A stretch of DNA of 64,000 nucleotides from Tepidamorphus gemmatus (lineage in GTDB: Bacteria > Pseudomonadota > Alphaproteobacteria > Rhizobiales > Tepidamorphaceae). The translations under genes were made by a program, and so were the position numbers. Positions 1,743 through 17,581 of this stretch are shown here, in pieces. Numbering within the stretch: position 1 is the first letter of the stretch; each line of letters starts with the position of its first letter. The stretch spans positions 434,001 to 498,000 of the forward strand of contig NZ_SMAK01000002.1 of NCBI RefSeq assembly GCF_004346195.1, read 5' to 3'. Under the pieces are notes generated by a model, which saw only the letters and a program-made list of their open reading frames with translations, had not been told where the DNA came from and did no database searches.

Positions 1743-3461
1743 ATGCAGTTCATCAGGATGCCAGACTGGCGCATGGTCCGCACCGCCGCCCGGCGGGCGT
1801 GGATCGCCGTCGCGCTTGCCGGCTGTCTTGGCCCAATCGACTCGGCCTCTGCCGGTTCGCTGATGGTCGTCGTCGACGGTTCGAACAGCATGTGGGCCGA
1901 GATCGACGGCGTGAACAAGATCGTCGCCGTTCAGGATGCCATCGATCGCGCACTGTCGACGCAGAACCGCGGCCTGTCGGTCGGCGTCGTCGCCTATGGC
2001 GCCATGCGCCAGAATGCCTGCTCGGACGTTGCGGTGGTGGCACCGCCTAAAGGCATCGCGGCCGAAGCGGCAATCGCGGCGGTGCGGGCGATCCGCCCCA
2101 AGGGAGCCTCGCCCGTCGCTTCGGCACTCGAAACGGCCGCCTCCGTTGCGCCGACGGGCGAGCCGTTGTCGATCCTGCTGATCGCCGACGGCACCGATAA
2201 TTGCGGCGGCGATCCGGTGGCGGCTGCCCGCAGGCTCGCCGCCGAACATGCAGCGATCATTCACGTCATCGCCTTCGAGGCGATACGGCCCGACGGCCTC
2301 AAGGCCCTCGCGCCGATTGCCGAGGCGACGGGCGGAAGCTTCACCTTGGCCACCACGCTGGAGGAGTTCCGTGCAGCCTTCGCCGCCGCCGAGATCGCTG
2401 CGGCCGCCCACGACGGCAGGCCGGCTCCGCCGCTGCCGGCGCCCGACGTGGCTGAGCTCGCGGCCGAGCCCGAGGCGGAAGACCACCCGGCGCTGTTCAC
2501 CGGTTCGGTCGAAGACGGCGCGGGCACGGGCGGCCCGCTGGTCCTCGCCCAGGCAGAAGTCCCCATGCCGCGCGAACGGCCGATACTGCCCGATCCGGCC
2601 GAGAACGACCCCGGGACGATCCGGGCCGGGCAGCCGCTCGACCTCCTGCGCGGCCTCAACGTTGACCCGGGCGCTGCGGTCGACCCGGATGCGCCTCGCC
2701 CGGACCATCGGCTGCAGCTTGCCGCGCGCCTCGTCGAAGGCGGCGAGATGATCGGCAGCGGTGTGATCTGGCGGATCTTCAAGGCGCAGCCGGGCCACGA
2801 CGGCACGTTCGAGCTTCTCGAGGAAAGCGAGGCTCCGACGCCGAGCTTCGTGCTGCCCGCCGACGACTATATCGTCCACGTCGCGTACGGACTCGCCAAC
2901 ACGGCGCGGCGAATCTCGATGCGGGACGGGCCGGCCGACGAACAGATCGACCTCAATGCCGGCGGGCTGCGGCTGCACGCCGTAGGCGCCCTTGACGAAC
3001 CGCTGCCGGACCGCAACCTGATGCTGTCGGTCTATTCCTCCGAGCAGGACGAATATGGCCAGCGCAAGCTGCTGGTCGAACAGGCCACGCCGGGCAAGAT
3101 CATCCGCCTGAACGCCGGCACCTACCATGTCGTCAGCCGCTATGGCGACGCCAATTCCGTGATGCGCACCGATCTGCGCGTCCAGCCCGGGCAGCTGACC
3201 GATGCGACGATCCGTCATCAGGCTGCCGAGGTCACGTTCAAGCTGGTCAACGAGGCGGGTGGCGAGGCGCTGGCGAACACCGCGTGGAGCATCCTGTCGC
3301 CTGGCGGCGACGTCGTGAAGGAAAGCTTCGGCGCGTTCCCGAGCCATGTGCTGGCAAGCGGGGAGTATTCAGTCGTCGCCCGGCACGAGGGTCGGCTCTA
3401 CTCCCAGGACTTCAGCGTCGAACCCGGGCGGGATCGCGAGGTCGAGATCGTCGCCCGATAG
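1743..3461 (+). CDS. Secreted von Willebrand factor type A domain protein
   Basis: A 572-residue protein with a hydrophobic signal segment (about residues 12-37, ending SASAG). The VWA domain follows: MIDAS motif DGSNSM at residues 45-50, the second aspartate in LLIADGTDN at about 149, and GASPVASAL where a MIDAS threonine is usual (serine/alanine here). An acidic, proline-rich linker (about 210-310) leads to two beta-rich modules that look related to each other: each has a tryptophan-Ile strand (WRIF, WSIL), then a YIVHVAY or YSVVARH strand. The protein should act in the periplasm or at the cell surface, binding a ligand through metal. It is divergent from the nitroreductase operon. Function unknown. 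Confidence 0.85.
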   Translation: MQFIRMPDWRMVRTAARRAWIAVALAGCLGPIDSASAGSLMVVVDGSNSMWAEIDGVNKIVAVQDAIDRALSTQNRGLSVGVVAYGAMRQNACSDVAVVAPPKGIAAEAAIAAVRAIRPKGASPVASALETAASVAPTGEPLSILLIADGTDNCGGDPVAAARRLAAEHAAIIHVIAFEAIRPDGLKALAPIAEATGGSFTLATTLEEFRAAFAAAEIAAAAHDGRPAPPLPAPDVAELAAEPEAEDHPALFTGSVEDGAGTGGPLVLAQAEVPMPRERPILPDPAENDPGTIRAGQPLDLLRGLNVDPGAAVDPDAPRPDHRLQLAARLVEGGEMIGSGVIWRIFKAQPGHDGTFELLEESEAPTPSFVLPADDYIVHVAYGLANTARRISMRDGPADEQIDLNAGGLRLHAVGALDEPLPDRNLMLSVYSSEQDEYGQRKLLVEQATPGKIIRLNAGTYHVVSRYGDANSVMRTDLRVQPGQLTDATIRHQAAEVTFKLVNEAGGEALANTAWSILSPGGDVVKESFGAFPSHVLASGEYSVVARHEGRLYSQDFSVEPGRDREVEIVAR

Positions 3462-3470
3462 AGCTGCGGC

Positions 3471-3512
3471 CATGCCGGCTCTGCTGCCATGCCGGCTCTG
3501 CTGCGGCATGGC
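3471..3512. repeat. 17-bp tandem repeat with overlapping hairpin between convergent genes
   Basis: The 17-mer CATGCCGGCTCTGCTGC occurs twice head to tail at 3471-3487 and 3488-3504. The second copy also forms a perfect 9-bp inverted repeat, GCCATGCCG at 3486-3494 against CGGCATGGC at 3504-3512, with a 9-base loop. It lies in the 86-base gap between the convergent VWA and mccA genes, where a bidirectional transcription stop is plausible, though neither side has a T-tract. Confidence 0.6.
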
Positions 3513-3547
3513 TGTGATTGGTCGGGGCCGAAACGGCTCCGGAAACA

Positions 3548-5512
3548 TCAATCGGCGTGGATTGTAATCAGCTTCTGGCCTTCGCCGACCTGTTCACCGG
3601 CCGCCGTACTCACCTCGGTCACCGTGCCGTCCCGTCCGGCGACAAGCGTGTGCTCCATCTTCATCGCCTCGATGACCGCAAGCTTGGCCCCCTTCTCGAC
3701 CCTGTCGCCGGCAGCGACATGCACGGAGATCACCTTGCCGTGCATCGGCGCGCGGATAACCGCGTCGCCATCGCCCGTATCCAGATCGAGCGCGAACGGA
3801 TCGCGGAAGCAGACCGTCGTCTGGATGCCGTCGGCCAGCACGCAGACGCCATCCTCGAAATCGACCAGATCGACCTCGAATTCCCCGTCCGGAGCCGGAT
3901 CCGTCATCCTGACCGCGGGCTCGCCGTCGGCCCATTCCAGATCGACGCTTTCCGGCACGCCGTCCACAAGGATGGGCGTACTGACGGCCCTGACGGTGCC
4001 CAGCTGGAAGCCGTCACAGACGCTCCAGGGACTGTAGCGCTCGTCGGAGCGCAACAGTCGATCGCGCTCGATACGCTCCACCTCGCGCTCGACGAGACGG
4101 ATCGTCCCGAGCGCGATCGCAGCCTGACGCGCGCCGGGCGCGGCGGCGATCAGTTGGTCGAGCTTGCGGTCGATCATTCCCGTATCGAACCGACCGGCGC
4201 GGAAATCGCGATCGTCGGCGAGCCGTCGCAGGAAGCCGATGTTGCTCTTCGGCCCGGCCACGATGCTGGCGGCGAGCGCAGCCGACAGGCGATCAAGGGC
4301 CTCGTCGCGGGTTGCGCCATGCGCGATCACCTTGGCGATCATCGGATCGTAGAACGGCGTCACGGTGTCCCCCTCGCGCACGCCGGTGTCGATCCTCACC
4401 CCCTCCCCGCCGGCAAGCTCGAGCGCATGCAACGTACCGGTCGAGGGCAGGAAACCGTGCTGCGGATCTTCGGCATAGAGCCGCGCCTCGACGGCATGCC
4501 CGTCGAGCGGGATCTCGTGCTGCGTCATCGGCAGCGGCTCGCCCGACGCGACTCGGATCTGCCACTCGACGAGATCGAGTCCCGTGATCTCCTCGGTCAC
4601 CGGATGCTCGACCTGCAGCCGTGTGTTCATCTCCATGAAGTAGAATGGCGTGTCGTCGGCAAGCGGCCGCGACCCGTCGACGATGAACTCGACGGTTCCC
4701 GCCCCCTGGTAGCCGACGGCAAGCGCCGCGGTCACCGCGGCCTCGCCCATGCGGGCGCGCAGCCCGGCAGTGATGCCTGGCGCCGGTGCCTCCTCGATCA
4801 CCTTCTGATGGCGGCGCTGCAGCGAGCAGTCGCGCTCGTACAGGTGGACGACGTTTCCGTGGCAATCGCCGAAAATCTGGATCTCGACATGACGCGGCTT
4901 GGTGACGTACTTCTCGATCAGCACGCGGTCGTCGCCGAAGGCGGCTTTCGCCTCGCGCTTAGCACCGGCGAGCGCGTCGTCGAAATCCAAGGCCCGGTCG
5001 ACACGTCGCATCCCCTTGCCGCCGCCACCTGCGACCGCCTTGATCAACACCGGATAGCCGATCTCGTAGGCCTTCTCGCGCAAGAAGTCCGGCTCCTGCC
5101 GATGGCCATGGAAGCCCGGAACCACGGGCACCTTGGCCTTCTGCATCAGCGCCTTGGCCTCATCCTTGAGGCCCATGGCGCGGATCGCGGAGGCCGGCGG
5201 CCCGACGAAGACGAGACCCGCCGCAAGACACGCTTCCGCGAAAGCGGCATTTTCCGAAAGGAACCCGTAACCGGGATGGATGGCGTCGGCACCGCTGTCG
5301 CGGGCAGCGGCGATGATCGCCTCGCCCCGAAGATAGCTGTCGGAAGCCGGCGCGGGCCCGATCGCAACGGCCCTGTCGGCCAGTTCGACATGCAGAGCGC
5401 GCGCATCGGCTGCCGAGTAGACGGCGACCGTCTCGATGCCGAGACGGCGGGCGGTTCGGATGATGCGGCAGGCGATCTCGCCGCGATTGGCGATGAGCAG
5501 GGTGCGGATCAT
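3548..5512 (-). CDS. mccA: Methylcrotonyl-CoA carboxylase, biotin-containing alpha subunit
   Basis: A 654-residue acyl-CoA carboxylase alpha subunit. Order of domains: biotin carboxylase N-domain (LLIANRGEIACRIIRTARR at 5-23), ATP-grasp with GGGGKGM at 162-168 and EMNTRLQVEHPVTEE, biotin carboxylase C-domain, a linker, and a C-terminal biotin carrier domain with EAMKMEHT (biotinylated lysine about 618). It carboxylates biotin with bicarbonate and ATP for 3-methylcrotonyl-CoA in leucine degradation. I call MccA rather than PccA because of the AMGLKDEAKALMQKAKVPVV region, the mccB gene 3 kb upstream and the nearby isovaleryl-CoA dehydrogenase; a second, PccA-like paralogue is at 32457-34466. 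Serine dehydratase separates it from mccB, which is unusual. Confidence 0.88.
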   Translation of the reverse strand: MIRTLLIANRGEIACRIIRTARRLGIETVAVYSAADARALHVELADRAVAIGPAPASDSYLRGEAIIAAARDSGADAIHPGYGFLSENAAFAEACLAAGLVFVGPPASAIRAMGLKDEAKALMQKAKVPVVPGFHGHRQEPDFLREKAYEIGYPVLIKAVAGGGGKGMRRVDRALDFDDALAGAKREAKAAFGDDRVLIEKYVTKPRHVEIQIFGDCHGNVVHLYERDCSLQRRHQKVIEEAPAPGITAGLRARMGEAAVTAALAVGYQGAGTVEFIVDGSRPLADDTPFYFMEMNTRLQVEHPVTEEITGLDLVEWQIRVASGEPLPMTQHEIPLDGHAVEARLYAEDPQHGFLPSTGTLHALELAGGEGVRIDTGVREGDTVTPFYDPMIAKVIAHGATRDEALDRLSAALAASIVAGPKSNIGFLRRLADDRDFRAGRFDTGMIDRKLDQLIAAAPGARQAAIALGTIRLVEREVERIERDRLLRSDERYSPWSVCDGFQLGTVRAVSTPILVDGVPESVDLEWADGEPAVRMTDPAPDGEFEVDLVDFEDGVCVLADGIQTTVCFRDPFALDLDTGDGDAVIRAPMHGKVISVHVAAGDRVEKGAKLAVIEAMKMEHTLVAGRDGTVTEVSTAAGEQVGEGQKLITIHAD

Positions 5513-11453: not shown

Positions 11454-11593
11454 CCGATCCTCCCCTTCCGTCCCAGCGCCATTGCCGGCCAGTATAGGAG
11501 GCCGGCGGCGGCGCGAGAATTCGGTCGGTGCAGACGTCAGCGGCGCGGCCCCTTCGGACCGCGCCGGTCAATTGCATGATGACAGGGAAAGGG

Positions 11594-11719
11594 TCAGCGC
11601 GCCGCTATGGCGTTTGGCTCGAAGCCGCCGAACAGCGCTGCAATCAGCATCACGCCAACGAGCACCGCCAGCGTCCACGCCGTCACCCGAAGGTACGACG
11701 GCCCTGCGTCACGTTCCAT
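11594..11719 (-). CDS. Small single-pass membrane protein, 41 residues
   Basis: A short gene starting MERDAGPSYLRVTAWTLAV; residues about 13-32 form one confident transmembrane helix (TAWTLAVLVGVMLIAALFGG), followed by a short tail. AGAGG lies seven bases before the ATG. It sits downstream of the YdcF-like gene on the same strand, separated by that gene's terminator hairpin, so it should have its own promoter. I do not recognise the family. The clean ribosome site and typical membrane-helix composition argue for a real gene. Confidence 0.5.
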   Translation of the reverse strand: MERDAGPSYLRVTAWTLAVLVGVMLIAALFGGFEPNAIAAR

Positions 11720-11852
11720 TCAAGATCCTCTTGCGCTCCGCCGGCCCTTGCGCGCTCAGCTCGCGGTTCCGGACGGGCGCTCTGGTTACGATTTATTAGG
11801 ATTTGTTGCAAGGGCCTGCTGCACCGCAATATGGTCATGCACGGATGACACC

Positions 11853-11889
11853 GAAAGCCGGGCCCGCCACTCAACGATCCGGGCCCGGC
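11853..11889 (-). terminator. Intrinsic terminator of the YdcF-like gene
   Basis: On the minus strand GCCGGGCCC pairs with GGGCCCGGC (9 bp perfect, 15-base loop holding the stop codon of the YdcF-like gene), followed by TTTCGGTGT. It is a GC-rich stem with a short T-run. Confidence 0.65.
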
Positions 11890-12674
11890 AGAGGTTCCGA
11901 GCTCTTGCCGGTGAGATAGTAGGCGACCAGCCCTACCCATTCGCGCGTGGCCACATCGATGCGCCGCAATCCTTCGGAGGCGGAATCGAACGGGCGCCAG
12001 ACGTCCTGCCAGCCGCGGGTGCGGAAATCGACCGGGTAGGCTTCAACCGGAAAACCTGCGGCTCGGAAGCTGCCGATGGCGCGCGGCATATGCCAGGCCG
12101 ATGTCACCAGGAGCCAGGTCTCGCCGTCCCCGGGCTGAACCAGTTCACGGGTGTAGACCGCATTCTCGTGGGTGTTGCGCGAGCGGCCCTCGAGTTCGAT
12201 CCGGTCCGGATCGACGCCGAGGCCGGCAAGAAGACGGCCGGCCAGATCGGCTTCTGTGCCCTCGTCGAACAGCAGGCGTCCGGATCCGCCCGTGAACACC
12301 AGCCGCGCCCGTGGATACCGGCGCGACAGCGCGGCGAACTCGACAACCCGTTCCGCCGTTTCGTTCAGGGCGACACTGCCCCGGGCCGAGCTGGTGACGG
12401 TCTCGAACGATCCGCCCAGCAGGATGATCCCGTCCGGCGGAATCGAGTTGGCCTGCCAGGCGGGGAACCGTTCCTCGAGCGGCAGGATCAGCCACTGGCC
12501 GAGCGGCGAGAAGGCACAGACGATGAGGCCCGTCAGACCGAGGCCGAGCAGCCAGCGTCCCAGACGCCGCAGGCGGCCGGCGAGCAGGGCAAGTGCCCCC
12601 GCGGCCGCCATCGTCAGCAGCAGGTTCGAAGGCTGCAGCAGGAACCAGGCGATCTTGGACAGGTAGAAGAACAT
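11871..12674 (-). CDS. YdcF/ElyC (DUF218) family membrane protein
   Basis: A 267-residue protein with two N-terminal hydrophobic segments (about 1-32 and 38-58) and a DUF218 domain from about residue 78: DGIILLGGS, a RARLVFTGGSG strand, then SRNTHENAVYT and LVTSAWHMPRA, the family's conserved acidic/His motifs. Relatives such as ElyC and SanA affect envelope integrity or undecaprenyl-carrier use. The start at MFFYLSKIAWFLLQP fits the family. Its gene ends inside a terminator hairpin. The precise role here is not known. Confidence 0.85.
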   Translation of the reverse strand: MFFYLSKIAWFLLQPSNLLLTMAAAGALALLAGRLRRLGRWLLGLGLTGLIVCAFSPLGQWLILPLEERFPAWQANSIPPDGIILLGGSFETVTSSARGSVALNETAERVVEFAALSRRYPRARLVFTGGSGRLLFDEGTEADLAGRLLAGLGVDPDRIELEGRSRNTHENAVYTRELVQPGDGETWLLVTSAWHMPRAIGSFRAAGFPVEAYPVDFRTRGWQDVWRPFDSASEGLRRIDVATREWVGLVAYYLTGKSSEPLPGPDR

Positions 12675-15747: not shown

Positions 15748-16008
15748 TCAGACGGCGTGCCGCTCGGGCTGTATGTTGCAGGACTTGACGCCGGGCAGAC
15801 GCGCGATCTCGGCAGCCTGCCCGGCATCGTCGAGCAGGACCCAGAACATCGATCGGCCAACCGGGTTGCGCGCCCCGGGAGCCAGCGCACCGACATTGCC
15901 GGGCCCGACGACCGCTTCGATGCGTTCGATCGTGGCGGCACGCTCGCTGTCCGAAAGGGCCGACTCAAGGGTTGCGACCGCGTGCTGCCTGTTGCGAGTC
16001 CGGGACAT
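15748..16008 (-). CDS. Small protein downstream of a subtilase, possibly inhibitor-I9-like
   Basis: An 86-residue protein. The start overlaps the last 44 bases of the subtilase gene in another frame, suggesting translational coupling. The C-terminal half, from GRSMFWVLLDDAGQAAEI through ARLPGVKSCNIQPER, has the strand-helix-strand pattern of the I9 propeptide/inhibitor fold that acts as chaperone and inhibitor for subtilases. The N-terminal half is a short helical stretch without a signal peptide. The I9 resemblance is by eye only; the pairing with a protease is what makes it credible. It may instead be an unrelated small protein. Confidence 0.6.
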   Translation of the reverse strand: MSRTRNRQHAVATLESALSDSERAATIERIEAVVGPGNVGALAPGARNPVGRSMFWVLLDDAGQAAEIARLPGVKSCNIQPERHAV

Positions 16009-17581
16009 TACCCTGCTTGCCGACGCCTGGCCTGTTGGTGACCAGATTATAGAGGTTCAATCGACCATGGCCATAGTCCTGGTGGAACGCGTGCCCTCCA
16101 CCGGTCATTGTCGGGGTCGCATCGCTCGTGTGGCGCAGAGCCGCGATCACCTGATCGATACCGCGCTTTCCGTACACCGCCATGTGGATCGCCAGCGCCG
16201 CGGTGACATGTGGCGTCGCCATCGAGGTTCCGTCCCAGGCGTCGAACCAGGTTCCCCTCGGAATCTTCCTGCCGGGCCGCGGTCGGCTGCCCTCATGCTC
16301 GATCTTGAAGCCGCTCCATCCCTCCGTGATCGGCAGTGTCGACCAGATCGCCGTTCCCGGAGCGCAGACCGTGATATGGGGTCCGCGATTGGAGAAGGTG
16401 GCAACACGGTCGAGCGGATCGGTCGCCCCGACTGCCACCACGTCCACATGCGCTGCGGGATACATCCTCGGACTCCCCAGCTGCCTCGAATTGCCCATTG
16501 CCGCGACCAGCAGCGCGCCCGAGCTTTGCAGCGCGTTGAACAGCATCCGCTCCTCCTCGGAGGGCGCTCCGGTACCGCCGATGCTGAGATTCACCACGTC
16601 GAGTTCGGCATCCACGCATTCCGACAATGCCCTCAGATAGAGTCTCGGGTCGACCACGAACCGGTATTCGCCGATCGAGTGGATGAGCGTCGGCTCGTCG
16701 GAGAAGATCTTCCAGACATGAAGCGGACACTCGCACAGCCCACGGATACCGGTCCGCGTGTCGAGGCCGGCGGCGATCGTCCCCGCGACGTGGGTACCGT
16801 GCCCGACGATATCCTTCGGCCCGGACACGACATTCAGGTCCGGGTAGCTGAAGTCGTACCGCATGACCCGTCCGGCGAAGAGCGGGTGGTCGAGGTCGAT
16901 GCCGGTATCGAGCACGGCGACCTTGACCTCCGTCGGCTCCCGGTAGGACGGATCCGCCCGTGCCGCGGGCCAATGAATGGCGTCGAATGACCAGCCGACC
17001 GTCCTGGCCGCCTCGCCTTTAGGATCCACCGGTTCCCGACTCGCCTGGCGTGACCGGGACGGCTGCGCCATGAGGTAGCGAACCGGCACGGCCTCGGCGC
17101 GCATCGACACATCCTCGGCAATCTCGCGCCGCAGTCGGTCGAGCCGCTGGCCGGAGCGCAGCTTGACCAGATTGGTCCCGCGCAGGATCGACTGCCCGAT
17201 ACGTTCGGGATCCCTGACGATCAGAGACGAGGCAAGTGCGAGGTGCACACCGAGAGGATCGCCGGCGAAGGCCGGGGCGACGCTGCCTTCGGCCACCGGA
17301 GCGAGCGGCTGCACCTCCTCGATCTGCCCCTGCCGGGCCAGCGATGCGAGCACGGCAAGCCCTGGATGCTCGGCCTCGACCTCGGCAATGGCAACATCCG
17401 GCGCATCCGCACCGCGCAGCGAGCCCAGTCTGGAGGGGTCGATGTGCAGCGCCTTCGCCGCAGTACGGGCAGCACCAAGCAGGCGGGCCGCCAACGCGCC
17501 TGCCCGCCCATCGACATTGACCAGCAGCAGGTTGTCGTGGGTATCCGCCAGCGCATCGCCGGAAAAGTATGCCATCTGCAT
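15965..17581 (-). CDS. S8-family serine peptidase (subtilase), no signal peptide
   Basis: A 538-residue subtilase. The catalytic triad is complete: Asp225 (VAVLDTGIDLDHP), His261 (GHGTHVAGT) and Ser453 (GTSMATPHV), with oxyanion Asn364 (AMGNS). A region of about 200 residues precedes the catalytic domain; part of it (about 60-95) could be a diverged propeptide. There is no signal sequence, so it probably works in the cytosol or is exported by another route. Only about 85 residues follow the catalytic serine. The ATG has GAGGTAA in front. It is the first gene of a two-gene unit with the small I9-like protein. Substrate unknown. Confidence 0.88.
   Translation of the reverse strand: MQMAYFSGDALADTHDNLLLVNVDGRAGALAARLLGAARTAAKALHIDPSRLGSLRGADAPDVAIAEVEAEHPGLAVLASLARQGQIEEVQPLAPVAEGSVAPAFAGDPLGVHLALASSLIVRDPERIGQSILRGTNLVKLRSGQRLDRLRREIAEDVSMRAEAVPVRYLMAQPSRSRQASREPVDPKGEAARTVGWSFDAIHWPAARADPSYREPTEVKVAVLDTGIDLDHPLFAGRVMRYDFSYPDLNVVSGPKDIVGHGTHVAGTIAAGLDTRTGIRGLCECPLHVWKIFSDEPTLIHSIGEYRFVVDPRLYLRALSECVDAELDVVNLSIGGTGAPSEEERMLFNALQSSGALLVAAMGNSRQLGSPRMYPAAHVDVVAVGATDPLDRVATFSNRGPHITVCAPGTAIWSTLPITEGWSGFKIEHEGSRPRPGRKIPRGTWFDAWDGTSMATPHVTAALAIHMAVYGKRGIDQVIAALRHTSDATPTMTGGGHAFHQDYGHGRLNLYNLVTNRPGVGKQGNVPDSQQAARGRNP

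Follow-up and report, generated by a model that had tools for sequence, protein, structure and literature searches.

How a cell tolerates an intact protease that is made without an export signal, and whether a small overlapping gene supplies its regulator, is the question raised by one locus of Tepidamorphus gemmatus. The locus lies in a stretch of 64,000 nucleotides (contig NZ_SMAK01000002.1, positions 434,001 to 498,000; hereafter the window), in which a gene for an S8 subtilase of 538 residues (15965..17581) is followed by a gene for an 86-residue protein, the partner (15748..16008). Coordinates are those of the window, and all features given for it are on the minus strand. A previous reading, made from the sequence only, took the two genes for a self-contained protease-regulator pair, in which a protein resembling I9 propeptides acts as inhibitor or chaperone from the end of the same operon. 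Our comparisons indicate that the subtilase and its partner are a conserved module. We consider it moderately probable that this module is a self-contained unit of protease and regulator, with the partner serving as a lock on the active site in trans.

Single-sequence searches with the partner found only the copy in its own genome and no relative in 60 related genomes or in plasmids, so the linkage had to be traced through the subtilase. Subtilases of one clade, with about 40% identity to the window copy, are present on Sinorhizobium plasmids, in Deinococcus and in Methylobacterium, and in the Sinorhizobium and Deinococcus records the gene directly after them encodes a protein of 84-88 residues that either lacks annotation or is called hypothetical. 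A scan of GTDB species genomes with one clade-specific peptide pattern (62 stretches), which misses members without the motif, yielded eight relatives, namely six from Sinorhizobium/Ensifer, one from Methylobacterium and one from a metagenome-assembled genome (MAG) of Labilithrix (Myxococcota). Nine plasmid loci bring the family to 17 loci, and a 13-member profile found the partner encoded at every one of them. Twelve of the 17 loci contributed to that profile; the other five (L003, L011, L014, L016 and L017) are rhizobial and near the contributors. At 16 of the 17 loci the partner is directly downstream of the subtilase; in 14 of these the overlap is 4 or 8 bp, and in the other two the genes are separated by gaps of 35 and 57 bp. 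The partner is displaced in L007 (Methylobacterium nodulans ORS 2060, 2752-5089), where the module is rearranged near IS66 elements, with a truncated subtilase on one strand and its C-terminal piece and the partner upstream on the other. These adjacency counts cover the fetched loci; among the Sinorhizobium plasmid records, 68 contain the subtilase and 69 the partner. The pairing was found in five lineages (the window, Sinorhizobium/Ensifer, Methylobacterium, Deinococcus and the Labilithrix MAG), across which the partners share just 16-24% identity with the window copy.

Distant subtilases served as controls. Scanning viral contigs with the window subtilase gave no relative, and scanning them with the family alignment gave 42 loci with distant subtilases, in which the partner profile found nothing at E values up to 1. 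Co-occurrence of the two genes across genomes, which the sequence-only reading had proposed as a check, was borne out by this comparison (17/17 family loci against 0/42 controls). Elsewhere in the window's genome, two further S8 genes lie next to each other (contig C11, about 95208-98103; L083 and L084), and the partner profile found nothing in their fetched flanks. No other neighbour common to the lineages was seen, in a set of loci where annotation is missing from several records and the majority of the flanking open reading frames (ORFs) were not searched against families.

The window subtilase has an intact catalytic centre. Pfam recognises the Peptidase_S8 catalytic domain (residues 218-506; 16064..16930; E 3.5e-41) as its sole domain. 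The codons for Asp225 (16907..16909), His261 (16799..16801) and Ser453 (16223..16225), and that for Asn364 of the oxyanion hole (16490..16492), encode residues that are invariant in the nine-member family alignment, in agreement with the complete S8 triad described previously. The absence of a signal peptide was also upheld by a Kyte-Doolittle hydropathy check, used here in place of SignalP, in which none was apparent and the highest 15-residue mean within the first 50 residues was 1.23. Among solved structures, its best relative is an intracellular serine protease, with secreted subtilisins ranking next. The general 'subtilase' model of PADLOC matches the protein (E 1.4e-19) and IetS matches it weakly. 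The full-length structural model is poor (predicted local distance difference test, pLDDT, 53.8), and a fold search with it supports the S8 domain only.

The partner gene was found as described before, with a 44-bp overlap with the subtilase gene in a different frame (15965..16008), and this overlap possibly reflects translational coupling. Its content of guanine plus cytosine by codon position (0.71/0.54/0.80) is similar to that of the subtilase gene (0.69/0.51/0.78). Among rhizobial homologues, the pairwise ratio of nonsynonymous to synonymous substitution rates (dN/dS) is 0.05-0.22 in 17 of 21 pairs, dS being saturated in the other four. Because its codon positions resemble those of the subtilase and dN/dS is low in rhizobia, the 86-residue ORF looks like a real gene, under purifying selection among rhizobia. 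The partner has no match in Pfam or NCBIfam. Its predicted structure (pLDDT 86) has the right topology for an I9 propeptide, and the second half forms a strand (residues 54-59), a helix (63-69) and a strand (74-79), as the sequence-only reading had anticipated. In VIA-align the model matches the propeptide of Aspergillus fumigatus alkaline protease (8gkq_A, Z 7.3; 8gkp_J, Z 7.1) and that of subtilisin E (3whi_B, Z 6.8), and the propeptide of Tk-subtilisin appears in Foldseek at rank 29 (2z58_B). In Pfam, single members also match NapD, AsnC, FtsX and ACT weakly, which was taken to reflect the common ferredoxin-like fold only. Past the fourth strand, the C-terminal tail (residues 80-86; 15751..15771) includes Arg83, which is invariant across the 13 aligned members, and the tail around this arginine is a candidate active-site-binding segment.

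The N-terminal extension of the subtilase, about 190 residues long, has conserved segments that resemble a cis prodomain. The prodomain-like region covers approximately residues 15-172 (17066..17539) and closes with the conserved end VPVRYLMA. It is bipartite in the family, ends in DPxVxSVSRVPxRYL or a similar sequence in most members, and shows an alternation of strands and helices at low confidence in the full-length model. Searches of the region against Pfam gave nothing above cut-off; the Labilithrix region alone weakly matches Fervidolysin_NPro-like (E 0.006-0.007, below cut-off). The alignment of the partner profile, built here with two additional weak homologues discussed below, to the C-terminal half of the cis region is in register and includes the arginine near the end. 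The alignment score was 19.0, and none of 300 column shuffles scored as high (shuffle maximum 17.0). When the partner profile was compared with 31 segments along the subtilase, the cis region ranked first with a score of 18.6. The partner is thus probably a detached paralogue of the cis prodomain, with weak statistics, and the cis region itself may work as a propeptide. The sequence-only reading, which supposed that the inhibitor is supplied in trans instead of as a propeptide in the same chain, overlooked this region; the partner would be additional to it. In Sinorhizobium meliloti 1021, the gene on pSymA (L010, from 5869, plus strand) is interrupted by one in-frame stop just past the cis region, which leaves one frame for the prodomain and a separate ORF for the catalytic part; the gene is intact in strains M162 and ABS7.

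A number of observations weigh against the module and against a propeptide-like partner. Among the controls, the match in one of the 42 loci (L058) is followed by just 23 bases of sequence, and several loci look like near-duplicates. Domains of the FtsX, EF-1 beta, S6 and AsnC types score as high as the propeptides or higher against the partner model in VIA-align, and all scores are near or under Z 8, possibly just the common arrangement of the fold. Foldseek gave no match to the partner model at E 0.001 or better, and its top rows were ribosomal protein S6. The profile search against I9, suggested by the sequence-only reading, was negative, Pfam Inhibitor_I9 (PF05922) matching none of the 13 partner members at E values up to 10; Pfam I9 also matches nothing in 115 genomes, the window's own included. 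The hhalign P for the match between partner and cis region is 0.013, or 0.019 without the two additional homologues, and a segment in the catalytic domain scores 17.8 over 18 columns, close to the 18.6 of the cis region. In Labilithrix, the unrelated AphA_like family matches the same protein better (E 0.0004-0.004) than Fervidolysin_NPro-like does. Sinorhizobium partners extend 4-5 residues past those of Ensifer, and since the tail length past Arg83 varies, the exact C-terminus of the partner is not conserved. Finally, the two weak homologues (genomes G524 and G473, loci L067/L068; E 4e-7 and 3e-6) match mainly in the C-terminal half, belong to one genus in another class of the same phylum, and have no S8-family match at 1e-10. 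Because these homologues stand without an S8 match, the partner is not always tied to this subtilase.

One of these two orphans has a weak match, below cut-off, to Pfam CspB_prodomain (E 0.085). Further profile matches, in one list from four other genomes (E 5e-4 to 0.008) and in a second list from 12 (E 2e-4 to 0.01), mostly fall inside far longer frames and were treated as chance. The two lists have one genome in common, and L063 and L069 were examined.

Taken against these observations, the linkage is conserved and the predicted fold is compatible with I9, so that neither an unrelated fold nor a lack of linkage to subtilases in other genomes was found. The fold model is not diagnostic, as the partner shares its fold matches with other ferredoxin-like proteins and Pfam I9 does not recognise it; the I9-like identity proposed earlier therefore stands for the fold only. 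Likewise, the proposal of a self-contained pair gains from the linkage and the fold, and is set back by the missing I9 match and by the prodomain-like region in cis.

The following course of events would account for the module. The subtilase would be produced without a signal peptide, with its own prodomain-like region and an intact catalytic centre. The product of the downstream gene would be a separate protein of ferredoxin-like fold, probably an offshoot of the cis prodomain's second half or a protein similar to it. The partner would sit on the catalytic domain with its C-terminal tail around Arg83 in the active-site cleft, and its removal or degradation would free an enzyme that until then is kept back in the cell; PopC of Myxococcus xanthus is restrained by PopD in a similar way. 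What we infer here is that the two proteins bind directly, that activity is inhibited and that removal of the partner brings release. A lock in trans is the best explanation because a leaderless, intact subtilase would be dangerous in the cell, and because its partner comes from an overlapping gene and has a fold like that of a propeptide, with a conserved arginine in the tail.

Judged by the descriptions in the papers cited here, PopC/PopD is the closest known system, and ASP/ORF2 of Aeromonas sobria is the next; the likeness to PopC/PopD is one of description. PopC of M. xanthus is a subtilase of 50.8 kDa without a signal peptide, with an unrecognised N-terminal part and a C-terminal subtilisin domain (PMC6434023). 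PopD forms a complex with PopC, whose secretion it inhibits as long as the cells are not starving; when they starve, PopD is degraded, which releases PopC (PMC6434023). In the popCD operon, the start of popD is about 1437 bp after popC, as judged from site positions (PMC4320627). The window protein is similarly a leaderless subtilase with an N-terminal part in which no domain is recognised and a C-terminal S8 domain, and the partner gene is directly downstream in the window and at 16 of the 17 family loci, L007 being rearranged. The Labilithrix member also belongs to the Myxococcota. In the descriptions consulted, PopD acts on PopC secretion, and neither a fold for PopD nor proof of a block of catalysis is given; the effect proposed for the partner is a lock on the catalytic site. 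PopC is further described as accumulating in the periplasm and being secreted at full length; for this reason, the term 'cytosolic-looking' that the sequence-only reading applied to the window subtilase should be held lightly.

Other known inhibitors resemble the partner in part. Stand-alone propeptide-like inhibitors of subtilases include POIA1, the yeast peptidase B inhibitor, Arabidopsis SPI-1, TgMIC5 and Plasmodium SUB1-ProM, the last of which is encoded beside subtilisin-like genes (PMC6993865). Like the partner, they are small free-standing proteins with a propeptide fold, but they are eukaryotic, and in the literature consulted none is described as encoded in one operon with a bacterial subtilase whose gene it overlaps. 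None of them is among the six PDB sequences that the partner profile matches at E values up to 10. Nor is ORF2, whose presence in the searched set is unconfirmed; the absence of ORF2 and PopD from the match lists is informative neither way. The KLIKK protease/potempin pairs of Tannerella forsythia also combine a bacterial protease with a dedicated inhibitor gene next to it (PMC7296668). There, the gene for the inhibitor, a lipoprotein, is described as preceding that of a secreted protease, whereas the partner gene of the window follows and its product has no strongly hydrophobic stretch.

The ASP/ORF2 system also suggests a different function, in which the partner would chiefly help the subtilase to fold, as an external chaperone, and inhibition would be only a by-product of binding. 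ORF2, the product of a gene downstream of the subtilase gene, assists and inhibits ASP via its C-terminal end (PMC5638518), and the gene order and overlap of the window pair fit such a role. ASP, however, is secreted and described as being without a propeptide (PMC9549277), whereas the window subtilase has an N-terminal region of about 190 residues with a conserved prodomain-like end, and we regard a chaperone as an unlikely main function. Still less probably, the partner confers immunity or serves as an adaptor or substrate. In that case the subtilase would act on a dedicated target, such as a leader peptide, an exported peptide or a competitor, and the partner would steer it or protect the producer. 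Two variants of the locus are in line with this. In Deinococcus sp. QL22 (L085, NZ_CP097150.1, 418000-448000) the pair follows genes for an LxmK-like kinase (E 6.9e-30, below the model's cut-off) and for a HopA1+LanC protein, and upstream of these is an unannotated ORF of 189 residues (11499-12065, plus strand) with a Ser/Cys-rich C-terminus. This ORF looks like a lanthipeptide precursor in a class V-like cluster, and the Deinococcus subtilase may remove the leader of the lanthipeptide. The subtilase ORF of Methylobacterium WSM2598 (L018, 4691-7699, plus strand) is 1002 residues long, with about 500 extra N-terminal residues and a sub-threshold match to NLPC_P60 (E 0.072). However, no neighbour beyond the two genes was seen to be common to the lineages, within the limits of annotation given above. 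The precursor-like ORF has no convincing relative at the other loci, and in plasmids it found only itself.

The least probable of the alternatives, which we hold to be very unlikely, is that the subtilase and an unrelated ferredoxin-like protein of small size have only a transcript in common. The non-specific fold matches and the weak homologues in two genomes without the subtilase are in its favour, but the linkage across five lineages with no other common neighbour seen, and the absence of the partner from the 42 control loci, argue against it. A role in defence against phages was set aside, as PADLOC matches only the subtilase and the partner matches nothing there; defence genes were not surveyed at every locus. 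In the Deinococcus region, genes for a DNA methylase, an HNH protein and restriction are found approximately 7-15 kb from the pair.

The pair is rare. With the single subtilase as query, none of 239 other genomes of the class gave a match at 1e-45 (up to six candidates scored per genome), and the subtilase family profile gave nothing in 60 relatives at 1e-60 or in 397 genomes across the phylum at 1e-55 (up to three candidates scored per genome in the 397). The 18 phage records that matched contained distant subtilases only, and in none did coverage reach 80%. Close matches occur in 70 plasmid records, of which 66 are predicted to be conjugative. The patchy distribution and the location on plasmids suggest that the pair has spread horizontally. 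As a tentative and, taken as a whole, rather doubtful extension, the pair may be a horizontally spread double-prodomain module, the subtilase having a prodomain of its own and a detached paralogue of it serving in trans as a removable lock.

The best matches of a literature search contained nothing on the rhizobial or Deinococcus pair; subscription papers were mostly outside its scope, and an earlier mention is possible. The free-standing propeptide-like inhibitors found in the literature available are eukaryotic. Operon linkage of a bacterial family of this kind to a single clade of leaderless subtilases would reveal how such enzymes stay harmless in the cell. The pair can be tested directly, since S. 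meliloti, which carries it on its symbiosis plasmid, is genetically tractable. It also offers a concrete structural hypothesis for PopD. If PopD belongs to the same family, the C-signal protease switch would gain a structural explanation and would extend to rhizobial symbiosis plasmids and to a lanthipeptide-type cluster in Deinococcus.
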